Part shown: positions 1-9,516 of the stretch, piece after piece
How the letters are laid out: each line of letters opens with the position of its first letter
How positions within the stretch are numbered: the stretch's first letter is position 1
Assembly: GCA_017538685.1 (NCBI GenBank)
Contig: JAFYIK010000107.1
Span: 1 to 9,516, forward strand
Length of the DNA: 9,516 nucleotides
Origin: Bacteroidales bacterium
GTDB lineage: Bacteria > Bacteroidota > Bacteroidia > Bacteroidales > UBA932
Direction: 5' to 3'
Notes under the pieces: model-generated
What the model was told of the DNA's origin: nothing
What the model saw: only the letters and a program-made list of their open reading frames with translations
Database searches by the model: none
Made by a program: the position numbers and the translations under genes

Positions 1-493
1 AGTCGTAGATGCGGTAGGTGATATCGGAAGTCTCCTGGATTTCCGCGAGATACACTCCCCCGCCGAGGCCGTGGATACGGCCGGCAGGCAGGAAGAACAC
101 ATCGCCGGGATTCACCTCATAAGTTGCGAGAACGGACGTGAAATCCCCGCCCTTTACCAACGCCTCATACTCGTCAGGAGTGATCTGCTTCCGCAGGCCG
201 CTCATAAGATGCGCGCCCGGCTTCGCGCCGATCACATACCACATCTCGGTCTTACCCTTGCAGCCGTGCAGTCTGGCGGCCATCTCGTCTCCCGGATGGA
301 CCTGAATCGAGAGGTCGCGGTTGGAGTCGATGAACTTTATGAGCAGGGGGAACTGACCTTCGTAGATGTCGGTTATCTTCTTCCCCGCTTCAGGTCCTTC
401 GGCCACAACGGATTCGTCGCCGGGCCATCCTGAGAGGACCCAGCTCTCAGTCCCCCAGACGAGAGTTTTAAGTATGGGTTGGAACTTGTACAT
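1..493 (-). CDS. manA: Mannose-6-phosphate isomerase, class I (N-terminal 164 codons; C-terminus outside window)
   Basis: This enzyme interconverts mannose 6-phosphate and fructose 6-phosphate in the cytoplasm and needs zinc. The reading frame starts at the ATG on 493-491 and runs off the left edge, giving about half of the usual 310-320 residues. Visible family motifs are LSIQVHP (61-67), KTEMWYV (81-87), GDVFFLPAGRIHGLGGG (130-146) and the EIQETSDITYRIYD block (151-164). The expected zinc ligands are present: Gln64, His66, Glu83 and His141. The ATG lies one base after the gpmI stop codon, which suggests translational coupling. The N-terminus is unusually compact: WG (13-14) runs almost directly into ESW (16-18), and the linker before QFPLLIKF (47-54) is short. 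Typical class I enzymes carry roughly 40 more residues there. The frame is nevertheless open and the catalytic residues are intact, so I read it as functional. The family call is firm. Confidence 0.93.
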   Translation of the reverse strand, partial: MYKFQPILKTLVWGTESWVLSGWPGDESVVAEGPEAGKKITDIYEGQFPLLIKFIDSNRDLSIQVHPGDEMAARLHGCKGKTEMWYVIGAKPGAHLMSGLRKQITPDEYEALVKGGDFTSVLATYEVNPGDVFFLPAGRIHGLGGGVYLAEIQETSDITYRIYD

Positions 494-494
494 C

Positions 495-2015
495 CTATAT
501 CAGCGGCTCGGCGGTCATTGCCTCAGGCTGAGGGATACCCATCAGCTTCAGGATAGTCGGAGCCACATTGCAGAGCGCACCGTCCTTGACGGTCTTCACT
601 TCTTCACCGGCGTTGATCACGATGAACTGCACCGTGTTCAGCGAGTGCGCGGTGTTCGGAGTGCCGTCTGCATTCACGGCGAAATCCGCATTACCGTGGT
701 CCGCTGTGAGAAGCACCACATAATCCTTGGCAATCGCTTCTTCCACTACCCTGCCTACCAGTTTGTCGACTGTGGCGACCGCCTGGGTGATGGAGGTGTA
801 CACACCGGTGTGGCCCACCATATCGCCGTTGGCGAAGTTAAGGATAATCATATCCTGCTTGCCGCTGCGGATCTGTTCGATCAGCTTCTCGGCCACCTCG
901 GGGGCGCTCATTGCCGGCAGGAGGTCGTAAGTCGGGACCTTGGGAGAATTGACCAGGATACGGTCCTCATTCTCGAAAACGGTCTCGCGGCCGCCGTTGA
1001 AGAAGAACGTTACGTGGGCATATTTCTCAGTCTCGGCGATACGGAGCTGATGCTTGCCAGCCTTGGAGACGGTCTCGCCCAGGGTGTCCTGCACGAGTTC
1101 TTTGTCGAACAGGATGTGCACTCCGGTGAACGAAGCGTCGTAGGGAGTGAGGCAGCAGTAGTAAAGCGGAATCGTGTGCATACCCTCTTCCGGCATATCC
1201 TTCTGAGTTAGGGCCGCTGTGAGCTCACGGGCGCGGTCGTTGCGGAAGTTGTAGAAAATCACGGCGTCACCTTCCTCGATGGTCGCCACGGGCTTGCCGC
1301 CTTCAGTGACCACGATTGGTTTGATGAACTCGTCCGTAACGTCCGCGTCGTACGAAGCCTGGATACCGGCCTGTGCGCTCTCGAATGCTGCGCCCTTGCC
1401 TTCCACCAAAAGATCATACGCTTCCTTCACACGGTTCCAGCGCTTGTCGCGGTCCATAGCGTAGAAGCGTCCGCACACGGATGCTACCTTGCCGGTGGTC
1501 TCCTTCATCTTCTCCTCAAGCTCCGCCACGAAGCCGAGACCGCTGCGGGGGTCGGTGTCACGGCCGTCCATAAAGGCGTGGACATAGACTTTGTCCAGCC
1601 CCATCTCGGCGGCGACGCGCAGGAACTCGTAGACGTGAGTCAGCGAGCTGTGCACTCCGCCGTGGGAGGTAAGGCCCATCAGGTGCAGCTTCTTTCCTGA
1701 AGACTTCACATAGTCGAACGCGGCCTTTATCTCTTTGTTCTCGAGGAGTTTGTGTTCGCGGCAGGCGATATTGATCTTGACGAGGTCCTGATAAACCACA
1801 CGGCCTGCGCCGAGGTTCATATGTCCCACTTCCGAATTACCCATCTGTCCGTCCGGGAGGCCGACGTACTCGCCGCAAGCCTGAAGGTGTCCGAAAGGAT
1901 ATTTTGCCCTGAGGGCGTCGATATTCGGCGTGCCCTGGGTCCAGATGGCGTTGGAGTAATTGTGTGCACCCTCACCCCAACCGTCAAGAATCATTAAAAG
2001 TACTTTTCTGTTCAT
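495..2015 (-). CDS. gpmI: 2,3-bisphosphoglycerate-independent phosphoglycerate mutase
   Basis: This cytoplasmic glycolytic enzyme interconverts 3-phosphoglycerate and 2-phosphoglycerate through a phosphoserine intermediate and uses two Mn ions. At 506 residues it has the usual family length and all landmarks are visible. Asp11 lies in LDGWGEG and the catalytic Ser61 in GNSEVGH. The inserted phosphotransferase domain carries His122, [14 protein letters not shown] (146-159), [12 protein letters not shown] (182-193) and FRNDRAR (257-263). Lys331 precedes the return to the phosphatase-like domain, which holds [12 protein letters not shown] (393-404), TADHGN (437-442) and His457. By alignment from memory with the Bacillus enzyme, Asp11, Ser61, Asp398, His402, Asp439, His440 and His457 are the metal ligands, and none is missing. 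The ATG sits 8 nt after the upstream peptidase stop codon, without a Shine-Dalgarno sequence. manA follows after a single base. The identification is secure. Confidence 0.97.
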
Positions 2016-2023
2016 CTTAATAA

Positions 2024-4021
2024 TTAGTTAATCAGTCCGCGACCCCTGAGCATAGGCTTGGAGTCCGGCTCACGTCCGGCGAAAGCTTTGTAAAGCGTCA
2101 TAGGCTCTTCGCCGCCTCCCCTCTCGAGGAAAGTTTCTTTAAATTTACCGGCAAGCGCAACCGTCTTGTCCATATCCCACTGTCCGTCCGGTCCGACGCA
2201 TTCACTGACGAACACGCTGAAAGCGTCCTTATCGAGCACCTCAGCCCACAGATATCCATAGTAACCTGCGGAGTAGCCGCTCGAGAAGATATGGTTGAAA
2301 TAGGTCGTGCGGTAGCGCGGCACAATCTCCTTGATAAGTCCCATCTCCTTGCAGACCTTCGCCTCGAATTCATCTACGAACGCTGCGGGGTCGACTCCGT
2401 CGGGGATGGCGCTGAGTTCGTGCCACTTCATATCCAGAATCGACGCGGCCGCGAGTTCGGTGGTCATAAAGCCCTGGTTGAACTTGAGGGCTCCGTTGAT
2501 CTTCGCCACGAGCTCTGCAGGAATGACCTCGCCGTCGTCGTTGACTGCATACTGCTCGAGCAGCCAGGGCTGGAAGGCCCAGTTCTCATTGAACTGCGAG
2601 AACATCTCCACGAAGTCGCGGGTCACGCTCGTGCCCGAAACGCTCGGGTAGTGGCACTTTGTCAGAAGGCCGTGCAGCGCGTGGCCGAACTCGTGGAAGA
2701 CGGTCTGCACATCGTCCACTGAAAGGTATTCGGGCAGGTTGCCCACGTTCACGATGATCGGGCGCACTTCGTTGCCGTCGGCGTCCACATACTGGTCGCG
2801 GATGTTGTTCATCCACGCGCCGCCGCGCTTGGAGCTGCGCGGGTGATAGTCGGTGGTGAAAATGCCCACCAGCGCGCCTTCGGCGTCGGTGATTTTGTAG
2901 GTCTTCACCACTGCCGGGTTGTACGACGGCACGCCCTCGAGGAGTTCGAAGTTGATGCCGTAGAGCGTGTGCGCGCAGGTGAAGATGCCCTTCACCACGT
3001 TGTCGATCTTGAAGAACGGGCGAATCTGGTCGTCGTCCAGGTCATATTTGGCCTTGCGGACCTTCTCGGCGTAGTACCACCAGTCCCAGGGCTCGATTTC
3101 GTGGCCGGCTATCTGCTCCATATCGTAGATCTCGGCCTTCGCGCTCCTGACGGCAGCGGCCATAATCTCCGCGAGGAAGTTGTCCACGGTCGCTGGGTCG
3201 CCGGCCATCTTGTCCGAAAGCTGGTAGCTCGCGAAATCCGGATAGCCGAGGATGCTGGCCTTACGGGCGCGCAGACGCAAAACGTCCAGAAGCAAGGCGC
3301 AGTTGTCGTTCTCGTTGCCGTGGTGGCCGCGGGTTGTGTAAGCCTCGAACATAGCCTTACGGAGTTCACGGTCCTCGGTGGTGGTCATAGCGGTCGAGTA
3401 TTCGCTCACGCTGATGCCGAATCTCTCCTTGAACGCGTTGCTCTCGGCGAGGATGTTGTTGCCTATTTTCTGGGTCTTCACGGCGAGGTCGGAGTCGATC
3501 TGCTTAAGCCTCAGCTGGAGGTCTTCCGGCAGGCCGATACCGTCGCGCTCGAAGCCATCGAAGTGCTTTTTCAGCACCATCTGCTGCTCGCGGGTGAGAC
3601 CGCTCTGGTCTGCATAGTAGACCGCCGCCACCCTCTTATAGAGCCCCTTGTTGAAGGAGATTGCGGAGGAGTGGTCGGACATAAGCGGAATAGCCTCCTC
3701 GAGCACGGCGTCCAGCTCCGGGGTCTGGTCTGTCTCCGACACGTTGTAGAGCACGCCGACCACCTTGGAGAGTATGCTGCCGCTGAGTTCCAGCGGAGCT
3801 ATCGTGTTCTCGAAAGTAGGTGCTTCGGGATTGGCCACGATTGCGTCGATTTCGGCCTGCTGCTGCTCGATTCCCGCCTTGATTGCCGGGATGTAATCGG
3901 AGGTCTTGATCTTTTCGAACGGAGGAATGCCGTACGGTGTGTTCCATTCCTGAAGGAACGGATTCTGATGACAAGCTGTGATTGCGGCTGCCATTACGAG
4001 GAGTGCTAACGCTTTTTTCAT
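2024..4021 (-). CDS. M3 family peptidyl-dipeptidase (Dcp-like), predicted lipoprotein
   Basis: This is a zinc metallopeptidase of the thimet-oligopeptidase/Dcp family (M3A), which cuts short peptides, typically removing C-terminal dipeptides. It has 665 residues, close to the family's usual 680-710. The N-terminus is a lipoprotein signal with lipobox ITAC and Cys17, so the protein should be membrane-anchored outside the cytoplasm. No acidic surface-export motif follows the Cys, so a periplasm-facing position is the simpler guess. The opening [18 protein letters not shown] (21-38) is typical of Dcp. The zinc site is HEFGH (443-447, ligands His443 and His447, catalytic Glu444), with Glu472 in RDFVEMFSQ as third ligand. 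The tyrosine-rich substrate loop is at [13 protein letters not shown] (580-592). The position that is normally Pro in DFVE-x-PSQ is Phe474. It follows the DUF5689 gene by 9 nt. The family is certain; Dcp rather than oligopeptidase A specificity is probable. Confidence 0.94.
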
Positions 4022-4030
4022 TTTATACTG

Positions 4031-5155
4031 TTATTCCACGACAAAATCGTCGAGGGAGTTGACTGTTACCTGAATACTGCCCTGATAGAGGCTGAGGATA
4101 CCCGTGACGCTGATGGTTTTCTCTCCGCTGAGCACGGCGGGATCGATCTCCACGTCGCAGAACTTGCAGAAGCCGCTGGTGCGGATCTGGATTTCGGTGC
4201 CGTCCAGGGTGAAGTACTGGCTGACGCTGTAGGCCGCCTTCTCCACCGTGGGATAAGTGCCGTCGCCCTTGAGGTCGCCGAGGGTCACATCCTTTCCGTT
4301 CTCGTCCTGAAGCATAGTGTTTCCGCTTCCGACTTTGGCGTCGTCCCAGTCGCCGGCGAGGAGGTGCTCCTTCATCTTCGTCTCGGACATAGCCCAGGTG
4401 GTGATGCTGTGCCTCGCGCCGTCTTTACCGAGACCGTTGGAGTCCGAAAGGAACACGCGGTTCGAGTAGGCCTTCTTATCTTTCGTGCTGTCCAGATAGA
4501 GAAGCACGAAGTTTTCGTTCGCAAACTTGAGGCCCTTGAAGGTCACGAGCTTGCCGACCAGATGATGTGTGGCCTGGGTGTCGGTCTTTGGGTTCGGCAG
4601 CTGGTTCTTCGAATACACCAACGAGGGCACCACCGTCAGCTCACGGGAGCCGCGGACTATGTGCTCGTCGATGATCATCTGAGACTCGATGTAAGAGGTC
4701 TCATAGGTGCCGGACGGGTCGGAGAAGCCGATCTGGGCCATACCCATTCCGCCGTAGTTGCCGGTTTTGTAACCGTACATACCGAGGGTGAGGTCCTTGC
4801 AGTAGACATAGACCCTCTGGCCGGGGAGATAATCGTTGTAGAGGCTGTTTTTTCCGACTTTGATCTCTATTCCGCCGGTTTCATCCTGGATAAAGAAACT
4901 TTTATAGAAGTTGCCGGGCTGGTCCGTGGTGCTCACCACACCGCTGATCACTATGTCTTCGTTGATGGTAAGCGGCTTCTCCGGGGTGTAGAGCGAGACA
5001 AGCTGACCGATGGTGTGGGTCGTCTTGAGCGAGTCCGCTTTGTAGTGGGCCGGATATGAATAGACCGTAGTGAACACAGGCTGGAACTCTTCCTTCAGAG
5101 ACTGGCAGGAAACTAACGCCGCAAGGGCGAAAAGTGCAATGATAATCTTTTTCAT
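4031..5155 (-). CDS. DUF5689-type OB-fold lipoprotein, function unknown
   Basis: This is a predicted exported lipoprotein of 374 residues, with hydrophobic segment 4-15 and lipobox LVSC giving Cys17. The residues after Cys are QSLKEE. A lysine and two acidic residues this near the lipidated Cys resemble, but do not exactly match, Bacteroidota surface-export signals. Residues 62-145 look like an OB-fold domain of DUF5689 type: INEDIVISGVV, SFFIQDETGGIEIKV, and LPGQRVYVY followed by a glycine-rich strand. A second OB-like unit seems split between GKLVTFKGLKF (201-211) and TISVTGILSLYQGSIQVTV (347-365), with a long insertion. A CxxC pair (Cys330, Cys333) lies just before the closing strands; it could form a disulfide or bind metal. 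OB folds often bind nucleic acids or sugars. Its place 4 nt behind the TonB receptor suggests a surface binding partner for it; that role is inference. No catalytic motif is seen. Confidence 0.85.
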   Translation of the reverse strand: MKKIIIALFALAALVSCQSLKEEFQPVFTTVYSYPAHYKADSLKTTHTIGQLVSLYTPEKPLTINEDIVISGVVSTTDQPGNFYKSFFIQDETGGIEIKVGKNSLYNDYLPGQRVYVYCKDLTLGMYGYKTGNYGGMGMAQIGFSDPSGTYETSYIESQMIIDEHIVRGSRELTVVPSLVYSKNQLPNPKTDTQATHHLVGKLVTFKGLKFANENFVLLYLDSTKDKKAYSNRVFLSDSNGLGKDGARHSITTWAMSETKMKEHLLAGDWDDAKVGSGNTMLQDENGKDVTLGDLKGDGTYPTVEKAAYSVSQYFTLDGTEIQIRTSGFCKFCDVEIDPAVLSGEKTISVTGILSLYQGSIQVTVNSLDDFVVE

Positions 5156-5159
5156 AAGC

Positions 5160-8108
5160 TTAGAATCTGAAGTAGATGTTTAACATATAGTTCGCGCCCT
5201 GCATATAGAAGTACTTGGGATCGAAGCGGTAGTAGCGGTCTTTGCCCACGCTGCTGATGAGGCGGGTCTGCTCGTAACCTCCGGTCTTCACTTCCTTGTT
5301 GTTCAGGAAGTTGCTGACGTTGAGCGAGAAGCCTATGTAGTACTTGCGCTGGATGCTCCAGCTCTTGCCTGCCGAAGCGTTCATCAGGAACGCGGCCTTG
5401 AACTTCTCCTGGTAGGTCATTTCGCTGATGATGGCCGGGTTGGACTCGGAGCCCCTTGCCGCATAGGATGTGCGGTAGAGAGGGTTCATATCCAGATAGG
5501 CGTTGTCGAAGTACTGGCCGTTAAGCTCGAAGAACCAGTAACTGTTGGTGCGGTAGTTGAGCGCAAGCTCGGTGGCGAGCTGAGGAGTGCTCGGGACGTA
5601 GTGCTTCTGGTAGTGGTCCACCTTGAAGCTGCCGTCCAGGTTCTCGTCGTAGACAGGCACGCCTGCCGCGGTGTAGTCCACGGGGACATAGACCGGATGC
5701 TGCTGCCAGTAGGTGACTTCATCGTCACGCACCACCTCCGCGCTGTTGTCCACGGTCTGGACCATATGCGGGGTGCTTGTGTAGATGTACTCGCCGAGGC
5801 TGAGCACACCGCTCACGCTGAGGCCCTTGACGGGCAGCGGCACCTTCACGCCGAGCTCGACGCCCATATGGCGCTGGTCGATGCCTGTCATAGCGAAGTT
5901 GGTGAAGCTCTGCTGGGAGTCGTCGTAGAAGCTCATCACATCCGTCTGGTCCATAATCTTGGTGAAGAAACCGGTCACGCGGGCGCTGACAGCCTCGGAA
6001 GCGATCTGGTAATTGATGTCTGCCGAGAAGGTCTTCTGGGTCCTGAGGTCGTCCACGATGGTGTTGCGCGTACGGGGCGAGATGAAGCTGTTGTTGAAGG
6101 TGGGCGCGTCGTTGAAGTAACCGACATTGGCGCTCACGCGGCTGTTGCCGAAGAGGTCGTAGGCCACACTGGCTTTGGCCGCATAGGTGATGAACTTCGC
6201 CGTGGCGGACTTGCCGTAGGAGGTCTGGCCGTTCGAGAGGGCAGTAAGGTCTATGTTCTGGCCGTTGATGTCCGTGGCATAGATGTGCGAGCCGTCAGGG
6301 TTGGCTCCCGCGAAGAGGCCCTTGCGGACGAGGCCCTCACGCCAGAATGCGGTGGCGCCGAGTTTCGCGCCGGCCGTAGCGGTGAGCTGACCGAGCTTGT
6401 AGGTGCCGTCCACCCAGGCGTTCGCGACTCGGATCTGTGCAAGGTAATCGTAGCCGTATTTGCCTCCCTTCTTGATCTTCTCCGCGGAGCCGTGCTGCAG
6501 ATAGTAGTCGAGGTCGTTCTGAAGGAGAGCTTCGTTGGCGGCGAAATCGCGCTCGGCGAAGCTGTCGATATTGAGGAAGTAGCGGCCGCCGAGGAGGTCG
6601 TTCATCTTTTTGTAGTTCTCCGTCCTGTTGGCGCGGAAATCCATTCCGCCCTTCACCACGATGGTTCCGTCGTAGGACTTAAGCTTGGCGTTCGCGGCGA
6701 ACTGTATGTCGTTCTGGTCCACGTGGCGCTCTTCGAGGGCGTACTTGCTGCGGCCCTCGGCGTTGTGGTAGTTCACGTTGTACAGACGGTCCCAGTTGAG
6801 ATGCTGGTAGTTTGCGTACTCGGCTCCCCTCTGGGTCCAGGCGTAGGTGGTCCATTCGTATTTGTCCTGGTTCACGCGGTTGTAGTCCTCATCCTCCATA
6901 TAGTAGTAGCTCGGGAGGTTGCGGTAGTAGTCCGGCCGCGGGTCCATAGCGTCGTACCAGTCGAGTGCGGTGTAACCGTTGGAACCGGTCCTCCAGAGGA
7001 GGGTGGCGTTCGCGGTCAGCGGAAGGCTTTCGGAGGCGTACTCATACTTGAGGAGAGTCACAGGCTCGAAGGTCTTGCGGACGCGGGAGTTGCGCACCTT
7101 GCCGTTCTGGTAGCCCCAGTTGCTGTTGTACATATTGTCGCCCATCAGGTTGTAGACCTCCTGGGTGCTGGCGTTCTGCGCTCCCCTCTCGCCAGGTGTG
7201 GCGAAGGTGATGAGGCTGAGCTTGCCCTCGCCGAGGCGCTTGCCTATGCCGAGGTAGTAAGCGAACGAGCGGTAGTACACACCCTCGATCCAATCGTTTC
7301 CACCCATACGGACGGAAGCGTTGAAGGCATAGCTCCAGCCGTTGTTCTCTCCTGAAGCGTACGAAGCCATAAGGCGCATACGGTAGAGGGCGCTGTTGCT
7401 CAGAACGGAGAAGCGCCAGCCGGTGCGGACGCTGGTGGGCACTGCGTGGAGGTTGGTCACGCCGTTGAAGCCGCCGAAGCCCTCATCCGCCGTCTCGAGG
7501 CCGATGGTGGTGTCTTTCGAACGCATCGCTTCGTTAAGGCCGCTCCACAGGGAGAAAGGCGAGTAACCGGTGATGGCGTCGTTCATCTTCACGCCTGCGA
7601 GGTAGACGTCCTGGGTCTCGGAATTGTAACCGCGGTTCTTGAAGCGGACCGAGCTGAAGCCGTAACCTGCCACGTTGGTGTACACGTCGTTCGAGCCGAG
7701 AAGGAGTGTCGGAGTGTCCGAGTAGCCGGAATCGTCCATATCGAACTCGGCGTAATTGCTCTCGTCGGCCTCCATAATGGCGGCTTCGGGAGTCAGCGAC
7801 ACGAAGATGAGGTCCTTGATAAAGCCCTGGTCCACCGTGACGAACACGGTGAGGGCGGAAAACTCGTCCGCCTTCACGTCGAGCTGATAGATGCCGTCCG
7901 GGAGATTCTCGATGAGGAACTGTCCTTCGGAACCTGAGGCTGTTTCGGTCAGGACCTTGCCGTTCTGCGAGAGGACAAGTTCAGCTCCTGGGACGGGCAC
8001 CCTGCCGGCGCGGCTGACCACCGTTCCCTTGATTCCGCCGGTGAAGACCTGGGCGAAAGCAAGCGCAGAGATGAGCAGCGCGGCTGCTGCTGTAAACAGT
8101 TTTTTCAT
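5160..8108 (-). CDS. TonB-dependent outer-membrane receptor with carboxypeptidase-regulatory-like domain
   Basis: This is an outer-membrane active transporter of 982 residues. The signal peptide (1-19) probably ends at AFA before Gln20. Residues 23-105 form a CarboxypepD_reg-like Ig fold (GGIKGTVVSRAGRVPVPGAE, then GQFLIENLPDGIYQLDV). The plug follows at about 130-225, with VRFKNRGYNSETQDVYLAGV (154-173) as the recognisable core. The rest is a beta-barrel ending in the outer-membrane signature YFRF with a C-terminal Phe. No clear TonB box was found. It lacks the usual features of a SusC protein and no SusD gene adjoins it; a DUF5689 lipoprotein takes that place. Residues 394-447 are very aromatic, with 12 Tyr and 3 Trp, probably in an early extracellular loop. 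This receptor family recurs in Bacteroidales, but its substrate is unknown to me. The adjoining nuclease genes suggest nucleic-acid fragments, nucleotides or phosphate; that is inference. Confidence 0.9.
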   Translation of the reverse strand: MKKLFTAAAALLISALAFAQVFTGGIKGTVVSRAGRVPVPGAELVLSQNGKVLTETASGSEGQFLIENLPDGIYQLDVKADEFSALTVFVTVDQGFIKDLIFVSLTPEAAIMEADESNYAEFDMDDSGYSDTPTLLLGSNDVYTNVAGYGFSSVRFKNRGYNSETQDVYLAGVKMNDAITGYSPFSLWSGLNEAMRSKDTTIGLETADEGFGGFNGVTNLHAVPTSVRTGWRFSVLSNSALYRMRLMASYASGENNGWSYAFNASVRMGGNDWIEGVYYRSFAYYLGIGKRLGEGKLSLITFATPGERGAQNASTQEVYNLMGDNMYNSNWGYQNGKVRNSRVRKTFEPVTLLKYEYASESLPLTANATLLWRTGSNGYTALDWYDAMDPRPDYYRNLPSYYYMEDEDYNRVNQDKYEWTTYAWTQRGAEYANYQHLNWDRLYNVNYHNAEGRSKYALEERHVDQNDIQFAANAKLKSYDGTIVVKGGMDFRANRTENYKKMNDLLGGRYFLNIDSFAERDFAANEALLQNDLDYYLQHGSAEKIKKGGKYGYDYLAQIRVANAWVDGTYKLGQLTATAGAKLGATAFWREGLVRKGLFAGANPDGSHIYATDINGQNIDLTALSNGQTSYGKSATAKFITYAAKASVAYDLFGNSRVSANVGYFNDAPTFNNSFISPRTRNTIVDDLRTQKTFSADINYQIASEAVSARVTGFFTKIMDQTDVMSFYDDSQQSFTNFAMTGIDQRHMGVELGVKVPLPVKGLSVSGVLSLGEYIYTSTPHMVQTVDNSAEVVRDDEVTYWQQHPVYVPVDYTAAGVPVYDENLDGSFKVDHYQKHYVPSTPQLATELALNYRTNSYWFFELNGQYFDNAYLDMNPLYRTSYAARGSESNPAIISEMTYQEKFKAAFLMNASAGKSWSIQRKYYIGFSLNVSNFLNNKEVKTGGYEQTRLISSVGKDRYYRFDPKYFYMQGANYMLNIYFRF

Positions 8109-8111
8109 TGG

Positions 8112-9170
8112 TTATTTCTTGATTATGATATACGTGGGATAGTGGTCGGAATAACCTCCGATGAAAGAGCCGCCGGAGAAAGTACGGTAAGGGGTTCCCT
8201 TGTACTGACCGGTCTGCTGGGTCATAAAGTCTTTGTGGAAGACGCGGGCGTAATAACCCTTCTTTCCGCCGAGCTTGATGGGCTTGATCTTATAACCGCC
8301 GTTCGGGGCGTTCAGAAGGTTGTAGTTGACGTGGATAATGTCGAAGATGTTCCACACGCCCTGATATGCCAGGGAACCGTAACCGTCTTTGATGAGCTTG
8401 ATGAACGGATCGAAGAAATCGTCAGGAGTGACCTCCTCGGGTTTCTCCTTGCCGTGCAGCCAGACCACCATACTTTCGTCGGTGGGGTTGTCGTTCATAT
8501 CGCCCATTACCGCGATCTTGATGCCGGGATACTTCGCCTCCATCAGGCGCGAATGGTTGTAGATGATCTCTGCGCCACGGCTGCGGAGATTGCCGCCCTT
8601 GCCGCCTATCCTCGAAGGAAGGTGAGTCACGTAGAAGGCGAAATGCTCGTCGCCGATAAGACCGTGGACCATCAGGATGTCGCGGGTCCTGAAATAAGAG
8701 GTGTCAGTGTCCGAGAAGTCGATGGTGCTATGGAAATCGAACGGGATGCTCTCGCTGTCCAGATAAGTGAAGCGGTCCGGCTTGTAAAGCAGGGCCACAT
8801 CCACACCGCGGCGGTCCGGGCCGTCGTAGTGCACGATCTGGTAGTTCGCTTCAGCAATCTGAGGATCGGCCACGAGGTCCTCGAGCACAAGCCTGTTCTC
8901 GATCTCGCTGACTCCGAGGATGGTGTGCCACATCTTATTGTCATCCTTCATAGCGCGGATTACGCGGGCCATATTGTGGACTTTCTTCTCGTATTTGTCC
9001 TGAGTCCACTTGTTTCCTCCGGTAGGGAGATATTCGTCGTCGTTCTTCGCCGGATCGTCATAGATGTCGAAGAGGTTCTCCAGGTTGTAGAAACCTATCA
9101 CGTGAGTCTGCGCATTCGCAGAGAACGCAAGGAGAAGGAAGAGCGAAAAGACGTAAAATATTTTTTTCAT
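8112..9170 (-). CDS. Secreted endonuclease/exonuclease/phosphatase (EEP) family protein
   Basis: This protein belongs to the DNase I-like metal-dependent phosphoesterase superfamily. Members cleave DNA, RNA or other phosphodiesters and phosphate esters. It has 352 residues with a classical signal peptide, cut probably after ANA (18-20), so it should act in the periplasm or outside the cell. Superfamily motifs occur in order: YNLEN (28-32, Asn29), SEIEN (88-92, catalytic metal-ligand Glu89), DGPDRRGVDVAL (116-127), THLPSR (182-187, His183), GDMND (223-227, Asp224 and Asn226) and the closing SDHYP (341-345, Asp342 and His343). The active site looks complete. Where many EEP enzymes show an LDHI-like strand, this one has FDIIHVN (276-282). 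It lies 9 nt after an endonuclease gene and 3 nt before the TonB receptor, so DNA or RNA is the likeliest substrate, but phosphatase or lipid phosphodiesterase activity is not excluded. The ATG is supported by the signal peptide. Confidence 0.9.
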   Translation of the reverse strand: MKKIFYVFSLFLLLAFSANAQTHVIGFYNLENLFDIYDDPAKNDDEYLPTGGNKWTQDKYEKKVHNMARVIRAMKDDNKMWHTILGVSEIENRLVLEDLVADPQIAEANYQIVHYDGPDRRGVDVALLYKPDRFTYLDSESIPFDFHSTIDFSDTDTSYFRTRDILMVHGLIGDEHFAFYVTHLPSRIGGKGGNLRSRGAEIIYNHSRLMEAKYPGIKIAVMGDMNDNPTDESMVVWLHGKEKPEEVTPDDFFDPFIKLIKDGYGSLAYQGVWNIFDIIHVNYNLLNAPNGGYKIKPIKLGGKKGYYARVFHKDFMTQQTGQYKGTPYRTFSGGSFIGGYSDHYPTYIIIKK

Positions 9171-9179
9171 ATGAAAAGG

Positions 9180-9516
9180 TTATTGCCACCAGCTGTCTTC
9201 GGTGGATTCAATTTTAGTGTATAGGTCGGCTCCGACCATCGCTTCCAGATTCGGGAAGAAGTCGATGTCCATCATATCTTCAAGGTCATCGATGGTCATC
9301 GACTGGTCCATAATCTCCGAAGTTGCGTAGTATTCGTGATTGAAATAGAAACCGATTGCTGTGTAACCGCCCTGTTTTGCAGTGTTACCTATGGTTCCTC
9401 CTTTCTTGAAGCCCAGAAGCGCCTTGAAGTAGCCGACCGGCACCGCCACTTCTTTACCATCGTTATCTCTTGCCGTCTTGGTGTAGCCTCTGATGTCGCA
9501 GCCGGTAACCACGTAA
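9180..9516 (-). CDS. DNA/RNA non-specific endonuclease (NUC family), C-terminal 112 codons only
   Basis: The frame is open through the right edge, so the start and the catalytic DRGH-type beta-beta-alpha-metal motif are outside the window. What remains matches the C-terminal part of the Serratia nuclease/NucA family. The first full codons read YVVTGCDI, matching the WVVTG-type core strand. VAVPVGYFKALLGF then corresponds to the conserved VPTxFYK segment. YTAIGFYFNHEYY stands where most members have AFxxPN. TIDDLEDMMDIDFFPNL corresponds to the SIDEIExLTGLDFFPxLP motif, and the protein ends in WWQ before a TAA stop. No in-window codon is the true start; the GTG at 9512-9510 is internal. Enzymes of this family cut single- and double-stranded DNA and RNA, and Bacteroidota members are usually exported. 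The call rests on one half of the protein, but the DFFP block and strand order are distinctive. The EEP gene follows after 9 nt. Confidence 0.82.
   Translation of the reverse strand, partial: YVVTGCDIRGYTKTARDNDGKEVAVPVGYFKALLGFKKGGTIGNTAKQGGYTAIGFYFNHEYYATSEIMDQSMTIDDLEDMMDIDFFPNLEAMVGADLYTKIESTEDSWWQ

Follow-up and report, generated by a model that had tools for sequence, protein, structure and literature searches.

By what route DNA crosses the outer membrane of Bacteroidota is, to our knowledge, an open question. It is raised here by the window, the whole 9,516-nt stretch of Bacteroidales DNA that we analyzed, which holds genes for two exported nucleases, a TonB-dependent receptor (TBDR) and a lipoprotein of the DUF5689 family. 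What does this operon import, and to what end? In this report, we conclude that it is probably a TonB-driven machine for the import of DNA across the outer membrane, in which a nuclease of the EndA family and lipoproteins with OB folds take part. The imported DNA may be used for genetic exchange, as food, or for both; a link to a multi-HHH competence protein that is strong across the phylum is absent in the window’s own order.

A conserved four-gene unit

The seven genes found in the window by ORF calls and by Pfam and NCBIfam matches are co-directional (Table 1). The first-pass annotation had placed the genes for the Endonuclease_NS protein (NUC), the EEP nuclease, the TBDR and the DUF5689 lipoprotein in a single run, and the ORF calls and families reproduce both the run and its gaps: 9 nt (NUC/EEP), 3 nt (EEP/TBDR) and 4 nt (TBDR/DUF5689). 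Past the DUF5689 gene, the same-strand run goes on with the M3 peptidase, gpmI and manA genes after gaps of 9, 8 and 1 nt. A promoter/terminator scan, in which the total number of sites was about that of shuffled sequence, listed nothing resembling a terminator on the window’s minus strand.

Table 1. Genes of the window, and coordinates and members of other loci named in the text
Feature	Position	Strand	Remarks
Endonuclease_NS (NUC), C-terminal part	9180-9515	-	111 aa, cut by window end
EEP, Exo_endo_phos_3	8112-9170	-	352 aa
TBDR, N-terminal CarboxypepD_reg domain	5160-8108	-	982 aa
DUF5689 lipoprotein	4031-5155	-	374 aa
M3 peptidase (Dcp-like)	2024-4021	-	PF01432, E 1e-111; lipobox by eye
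gpmI	495-2015	-	co-directional, 3' of M3 peptidase
manA, partial	2-493	-	co-directional, 3' of gpmI
Stretch of L157 with NUC	3658-6636 nt downstream of TBDR start		downstream of DUF5689
Split receptor of L117	TBDR offsets 0-2820		two ORFs, 488 + 443 aa
Type II CRISPR set of the Riemerella-type genome	L122:2091-7532		Cas2, Cas1, Cas9; downstream of DUF5689
Lower-scoring DUF5689 and SusC/SusD-sized genes	L146:3923-12713		by length
Lower-scoring DUF5689 and SusC/SusD-sized genes	L147:3823-13361		by length
Lower-scoring DUF5689 and SusC/SusD-sized genes	L148:7883-14191		by length
Flavobacterium-type tree group, 11 members	L096-L098, L101, L102, L105, L107, L109-L111, L114		no adjacent EEP

Genome contigs were scanned with an alignment of 14 TBDR proteins (A1), which confirmed 567 matches; the best 80 of these were kept (L001-L080). 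Their receptors are 55-89% identical to that of the window, and by title the loci belong to Bacteroidales, Bacteroidia or groups within them. When their genes were compared with the window proteins, the order NUC-EEP-TBDR-DUF5689 was present in 74 of these best 80 of 567 loci; in the remaining six, a contig end cuts off the missing gene. The adjacency of the four genes is thus more than chance. This recurrence in related loci rules out that the genes are neighbors in this genome only, and the set that had been proposed from the window alone, in which an outer-membrane importer is combined with a pair of exported nucleases and a lipoprotein of OB fold, is a conserved unit. Across the best 80 of 567, the median gaps are 11, 6 and 4 nt.

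Further genes border the unit. Upstream, one protein cluster is represented in 56 of the 80 loci and ends beside the start of NUC in 53; the three members tested with Pfam carry OB-fold and/or BACON domains. In L001, the closest relative among the best 80 of 567 matches (TBDR 89% identical), the NUC ORF is 398 aa long, has a lipobox and is preceded by an ORF of this cluster. Because the latter abuts NUC there, the operon probably extends beyond the end of the window. Many of the relatives’ loci stem from rumen or gut MAGs, and a gut origin of the window DNA is therefore likely. Downstream, of the 56 loci (among the best 80 of 567) in which both DUF5689 and an M3 peptidase gene were found, 49 have the two on one strand and no more than 250 nt apart; the presence of this peptidase near a proposed DNA importer is unexplained by our model.

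Receptor, lipoprotein and nucleases

The putative receptor matches CarboxypepD_reg (PF13620, E 3.6e-10) but neither the Plug nor the TonB_dep_Rec model of Pfam. Its predicted structure (pLDDT 82) has Fiu as its best Foldseek/PDB match (E 6.9e-27), followed by PqqU/YncD, FecA, FhuA and BtuB. Judging from this model, the protein is a TonB-dependent receptor despite the missing family matches, and we propose that it serves as the outer-membrane channel for DNA.

The window’s DUF5689 protein matches PF18942 (E 5e-41), with OB and lipoprotein-signal matches below the Pfam cut-offs. Its predicted structure consists of one or more OB folds, and the 50 Foldseek matches listed are mostly OB proteins. 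We propose that it is the surface nucleic-acid-binding partner of the TBDR. The first-pass annotation had put it in the SusD position, which describes its place downstream of the receptor correctly but not its fold, which is predicted to be OB. Indeed, a SusD-like protein was considered and rejected given this fold and the lack of any SusD in Pfam, in NCBIfam or among the 50 Foldseek matches listed, the last of which is not by itself proof against SusD. Pfam and NCBIfam models of the SusC/SusD families matched none of the window proteins, and searches by sequence returned no useful solved structure for the TBDR or the DUF5689 protein. With 45.5 bits against a cut-off of 475, the latter falls outside the lipo_M949_1556 subfamily, a cut-off also missed by most of the Flavobacteria-type DUF5689 proteins tested. 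In four of that type (L115, L116, L103 and L118), a weak ExeM match (36.7-51.2 bits, cut-off 1300) replaces the choice-of-anchor J domain in the C-terminal part; from this substitution, the second half of the lipoprotein seems exchangeable.

Only the C-terminal part of NUC lies in the window, where it matches PF01223 with 24.7 bits (cut-off 23); the catalytic motif falls outside. In the relatives, NUC is about 400 aa long and bears a lipobox in 64 of 72 cases. The catalytic RGH is present in 71 of the 72 (KGH in the other), and all 72 have the Asn that belongs to the xNxT motif. The one relative’s NUC tested with Pfam (L002) combines BACON and Endonuclease_NS domains. We take this endonuclease family to include pneumococcal EndA.

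The EEP protein is a strong match to Exo_endo_phos_3 (PF19580, E 2.3e-92). By loose patterns, four active-site motifs are present in 76 of 76 relatives and a fifth in 68. A signal peptide without a lipobox was recognized by eye in the window protein, and a loose lipobox pattern occurs in 10 of the 76 relatives; EEP is predicted to be periplasmic or secreted. The median isoelectric points of DUF5689 (4.9), NUC (5.3) and TBDR (5.4) are all acidic.

The Riemerella pair and its relatives across Bacteroidota

A transposon screen of Riemerella anatipestifer reportedly found RA0C_RS04915 (PF13620) and RS04920 (DUF5689) each essential for natural transformation, and markerless deletion of either RS04920 or RS04915, which encodes an outer-membrane protein, brought transformation below detection (PMC8459023). 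The report names comEC, dprA, comF, recA, the gene for an HHH protein and a DUF1343 gene as essential also, and describes a choice-of-anchor J domain on the DUF5689 protein. It calls homologs of the pair widespread in Bacteroidetes, yet says that the RS04915 homolog occurs only in Flavobacteriaceae; Flavobacterium is stated to have homologs of the pair (PMC8459023). Mutants in tonBA and tonBB of R. anatipestifer are reported to transform less, with the tonBB effect put down to iron by the authors (PMC8383284), and TonB2 is reportedly involved in the transformation of Acinetobacter baumannii (PMC8811193). Flavobacterium johnsoniae is described as not competent under conditions where R. columbina was (PMC7965970). 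Among the PMC articles listed, DUF5689 and the TBDR/DUF5689 pair appear only in Riemerella work, the one article that names DUF5689 being the transposon screen.

A Riemerella-type genome, G558, was located by means of the published comEC primer, which matched 2 of 320 genomes. There, recA is followed by four genes and comEC, then by two further genes and by EEP (minus strand), TBDR (plus) and DUF5689 (plus). The tags RS04870, RS04895, RS04915 and RS04920 fit this order in steps of five, so that RS04910 would be the EEP gene, as deduced from gene order and not from the annotation of the record; the accessible R. anatipestifer literature that we found reports no RS04910 mutant. The TBDR of this genome shares 94% identity with a cluster that bears the name Riemerella anatipestifer, and its DUF5689 protein exceeds the lipo_M949_1556 cut-off (599 versus 475 bits) and has the choice-of-anchor J domain. 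When the window-type TBDR model was run genome-wide, in this one direction, the RS04915-type locus scored 247 bits and the next locus 35. In the tree described below, the window and Riemerella TBDRs fall into one group apart from three paralogs (support 0.968). The window and R. anatipestifer proteins are 28% identical over 965 columns (TBDR) and 27% over 232 columns (DUF5689). On these sequence comparisons, the window’s pair corresponds to RA0C_RS04915/RS04920, the TBDR being an ortholog and not a mere superfamily member. The annotated stretch of G558 holds no NUC. It also has a type II CRISPR set (Table 1), making genes for DNA uptake and DNA defense neighbors in this genome.

DNA or RNA had originally been suggested as the substrate, a good guess at its class. 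DNA is the best supported, and the only experimental link found is with transformation, not with growth on nucleic acid (PMC8459023). The pair could also assemble or serve some other envelope function, with the loss of transformation in Riemerella an indirect effect; M949_1556, a DUF5689-family gene of R. anatipestifer, reportedly influences both antigenicity and pathogenicity. We consider this very improbable, since each deletion had the same reported outcome as the losses of comEC, dprA, comF, recA and the HHH gene (PMC8459023), and since the conserved neighbors are nucleases.

How widespread is the pair? At a threshold of at least 168 bits, 39 of 247 genomes sampled across the phylum were TBDR-positive, and the best match among the other 208 was 66.7 bits; since at most three candidates per genome were scored at first look (at most five in the two order samples discussed below), absences of the TBDR are not certain. 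Thirty-eight loci were fetched from the 39 genomes, the centre genome’s own locus being L009. In 37 of the 38, the TBDR is followed by DUF5689 (within 120 nt in 35, after about 590 nt in two); in L084, from genome G021, it is on another contig than the TBDR. EEP is found no more than 2 kb upstream of the TBDR in 23 loci, divergent in 21 and co-directional in two, and only in those two does NUC join the run. Among 20 further loci, chosen from 69 TBDR-positive genomes of the order of the window’s relatives, DUF5689 is downstream in all 20, EEP is adjacent in 15 (14 divergent, one co-directional), and NUC is inside the operon in one and nearby in two. The adjacency across Bacteroidota that the first-pass annotation had proposed to check thus holds for TBDR and DUF5689, often with a divergent EEP, but the four-gene form is confined to one sampled clade.

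A tree of 87 TBDR sequences (84 of the window type, with three paralogs as outgroup; L117 and 56 of the 80 clade loci were not included) places the co-directional NUC-EEP loci, the window included, in a single group of 28 with support 1.0. Outside this clade, a divergent EEP next to TBDR-DUF5689, without NUC, is the commoner layout on the tree. Judged by the sampled loci, it is that divergent arrangement which is widely distributed, and the operon of four genes arose once.

Several loci depart from these layouts. In L157, the sister of the window clade, EEP is divergent and NUC lies downstream of DUF5689; it is possibly an intermediate in the assembly of the operon. An 11-member Flavobacterium-type group (Table 1) has TBDR-DUF5689 without an adjacent EEP, and same-strand upstream genes of three protein clusters recur in Flavobacterium-type loci of this EEP-less kind. 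The receptor of L117 is split into two ORFs, with DUF5689 intact behind them, which would reflect either a frameshift or a decaying gene.

DUF5689 proteins scoring at least 97 bits are present in 39 of 39 TBDR-positive and 0 of 208 TBDR-negative genomes, where the best score is 73.7 bits. The weak matches in TBDR-negative genomes were considered as hidden members of the family and rejected; about 18 kb inspected around each (in G084, G142, G006, G070 and G080) contained no TBDR. Three lower-scoring DUF5689 genes adjoin genes that are, by length, SusC/SusD-sized (Table 1), and L146 also has calcineurin-like phosphoesterase and GDPD genes; loci of this kind are possibly for phosphodiester utilization. 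By extension, EEP and DUF5689 in the window might serve a phospholipid, teichoic or glycerophosphodiester substrate, or an unrelated ligand. Such a role is suggested by G084, whose lower-scoring DUF5689 gene sits beside SusC/SusD-sized, calcineurin-like phosphoesterase and GDPD genes (Pfam-tested), and by G142, with neighbors of like sizes. Those proteins form a separate, lower class, however (73.7 bits at best, versus at least 97); the window-clade DUF5689 model does not match them, no window-type TBDR was found with them, and the loci of the window clade have, in addition, OB folds and a family of nucleases that act on nucleic acid. Another ligand is therefore improbable.

Transformation, nutrition and known systems

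Co-occurrence with competence proteins bears on the use of the imported DNA. Multi-HHH (ComEA-like) proteins were sought with a model (A2) built from nine sequences, all from TBDR-positive genomes, with a score of at least 100 bits counted as positive; none of the Fisher tests corrects for kinship. In the phylum sample, such a protein was found in 39 of 39 TBDR-positive and 22 of 208 TBDR-negative genomes (p 5e-30, kinship uncorrected). The order of G158 (Flavobacterium sp. 7A) gave 42 of 42 versus 33 of 106 (p 1.5e-16, likewise uncorrected), and 33 of 86 for the negatives once 20 genomes of 0.6 Mb or less were removed (p 2e-13). In the window’s order, 59 of 69 TBDR-positive and 62 of 80 TBDR-negative genomes have the protein (p 0.29), or 60 and 67, respectively, at 85 bits (p 0.65); hence, the association is absent there, and about ten TBDR-positive genomes lack it. 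The positives of this order were 68 genomes with TBDR scores of at least 237 bits together with G717 (151 bits, cut by a contig end); G820 (153.9 bits) was left out. Within the window clade, 35 of 36 genomes tested (from 36 of the 80 loci; three also gave A2 rows) have a multi-HHH protein, and ComEC was found in all four relatives tested. As proof of transformation, the co-occurrence is weakened by the null result in the window’s order, by uncorrected kinship and by a model drawn from TBDR-positive genomes only.

How might the operon work? OB-fold surface lipoproteins, namely DUF5689 and probably the upstream OB/BACON lipoprotein, would capture nucleic acid, which the lipid-anchored, EndA-family NUC would cut. 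The TBDR, capped or assisted by DUF5689, would then carry DNA through the outer membrane with energy supplied by TonB. In the periplasm, the exported EEP nuclease would trim the DNA, and a membrane-anchored multi-HHH protein with ComEC could take it on from there. We infer that DNA itself passes through the barrel, as we do the order of the steps and whether a given protein sits at the surface or in the periplasm. We further infer that nutrition is no more important a use of the imported DNA than its delivery to ComEC for transformation.

Any nuclease at the cell surface would, in addition, break down transforming DNA, which counts against an importer for transformation and suits feeding. Also counting against our model are the absence of NUC from the annotated Riemerella stretch, the reported lack of competence in F. 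johnsoniae although its genus has homologs of the pair, the acidic isoelectric points, the low DUF5689 identity to Riemerella with a score far below the lipo_M949_1556 cut-off, and the occurrence of DUF5689 domains in loci of other kinds. The locus could thus serve nutrition: NUC and the OB-fold lipoproteins would digest and hold DNA or RNA, the TBDR would import oligonucleotides and EEP would complete their digestion, for phosphate and nucleoside salvage without genetic exchange. That the importer shares its direction with two nucleases in one clade, and that no TBDR/multi-HHH link exists inside the window’s order, fits this scheme; further, a marine Lutibacter, also of the Bacteroidota, is reported to have been labeled from 13C-DNA (PMC8289736). 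Set against it are the reported need for the corresponding pair in R. anatipestifer transformation (PMC8459023), the prevalence outside the window clade of divergent loci without NUC, and the seven window genes themselves, among which Pfam and NCBIfam found no nucleotidase, nucleoside transporter or phosphate-uptake family. We regard nutrition as the sole function as rather unlikely, but in the window’s clade, where nucleases were added, it is still a serious competing reading or may be an additional use.

DNA import by the window’s operon suggests a broader and more tentative proposal, which we consider slightly less likely than not: a TonB-powered DNA importer made of a TBDR and a DUF5689 OB-fold lipoprotein is widespread in Bacteroidota and does the job done elsewhere by a secretin and type IV pilus. 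EEP would be the nuclease that accompanied it ancestrally; in one clade of Bacteroidales, that of the window, an EndA-family entry nuclease and surface OB/BACON capture proteins would have been joined to it in one operon. PilQ-type secretin and pilus families are absent among the window genes (Pfam, NCBIfam). If the proposal is true, the substrates of TonB-dependent receptors include DNA, and there is a testable route of entry for genes exchanged among gut Bacteroidales. The Riemerella pair, two proteins of unknown function, is now placed through Bacteroidales; new here are the exported nuclease (EEP) that adjoins it and a clade with two nucleases built into the operon.

The nearest known system is RA0C_RS04915/RS04920 itself. 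In both, a PF13620 TBDR is followed directly by a DUF5689 lipoprotein, with EEP adjacent. In Riemerella, EEP is divergent, whereas both nucleases lie inside the same operon in the window, and the C-terminal choice-of-anchor J domain of the R. anatipestifer lipoprotein has no match in the window protein.

The window had also been described as a nucleic-acid counterpart of a polysaccharide utilization locus (PUL). The resemblance in its parts for degradation, binding and import is real: as in a SusC/SusD PUL, the gene of the TBDR is followed by that of a lipoprotein, and degradative enzymes are encoded in the same direction. By family, however, it is no PUL, for SusC and SusD have no match in it, the lipoprotein is modeled as OB folds and the enzymes are nucleases. 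No carbohydrate-active enzyme was found by Pfam or NCBIfam among the window genes, which encode nucleases, a peptidase, gpmI and manA.

The entry nucleases EndA and NucA of Gram-positive competence offer another likeness, given that NUC belongs to Endonuclease_NS, which we take to be the family of pneumococcal EndA. Unlike these enzymes, the window-type NUC is a predicted lipoprotein of a Gram-negative bacterium with its own importer. Finally, secreted multidomain nucleases of the ExeM type likewise bring together OB-type and nuclease modules; in the window, these modules are separate proteins, and an importer is added to them.
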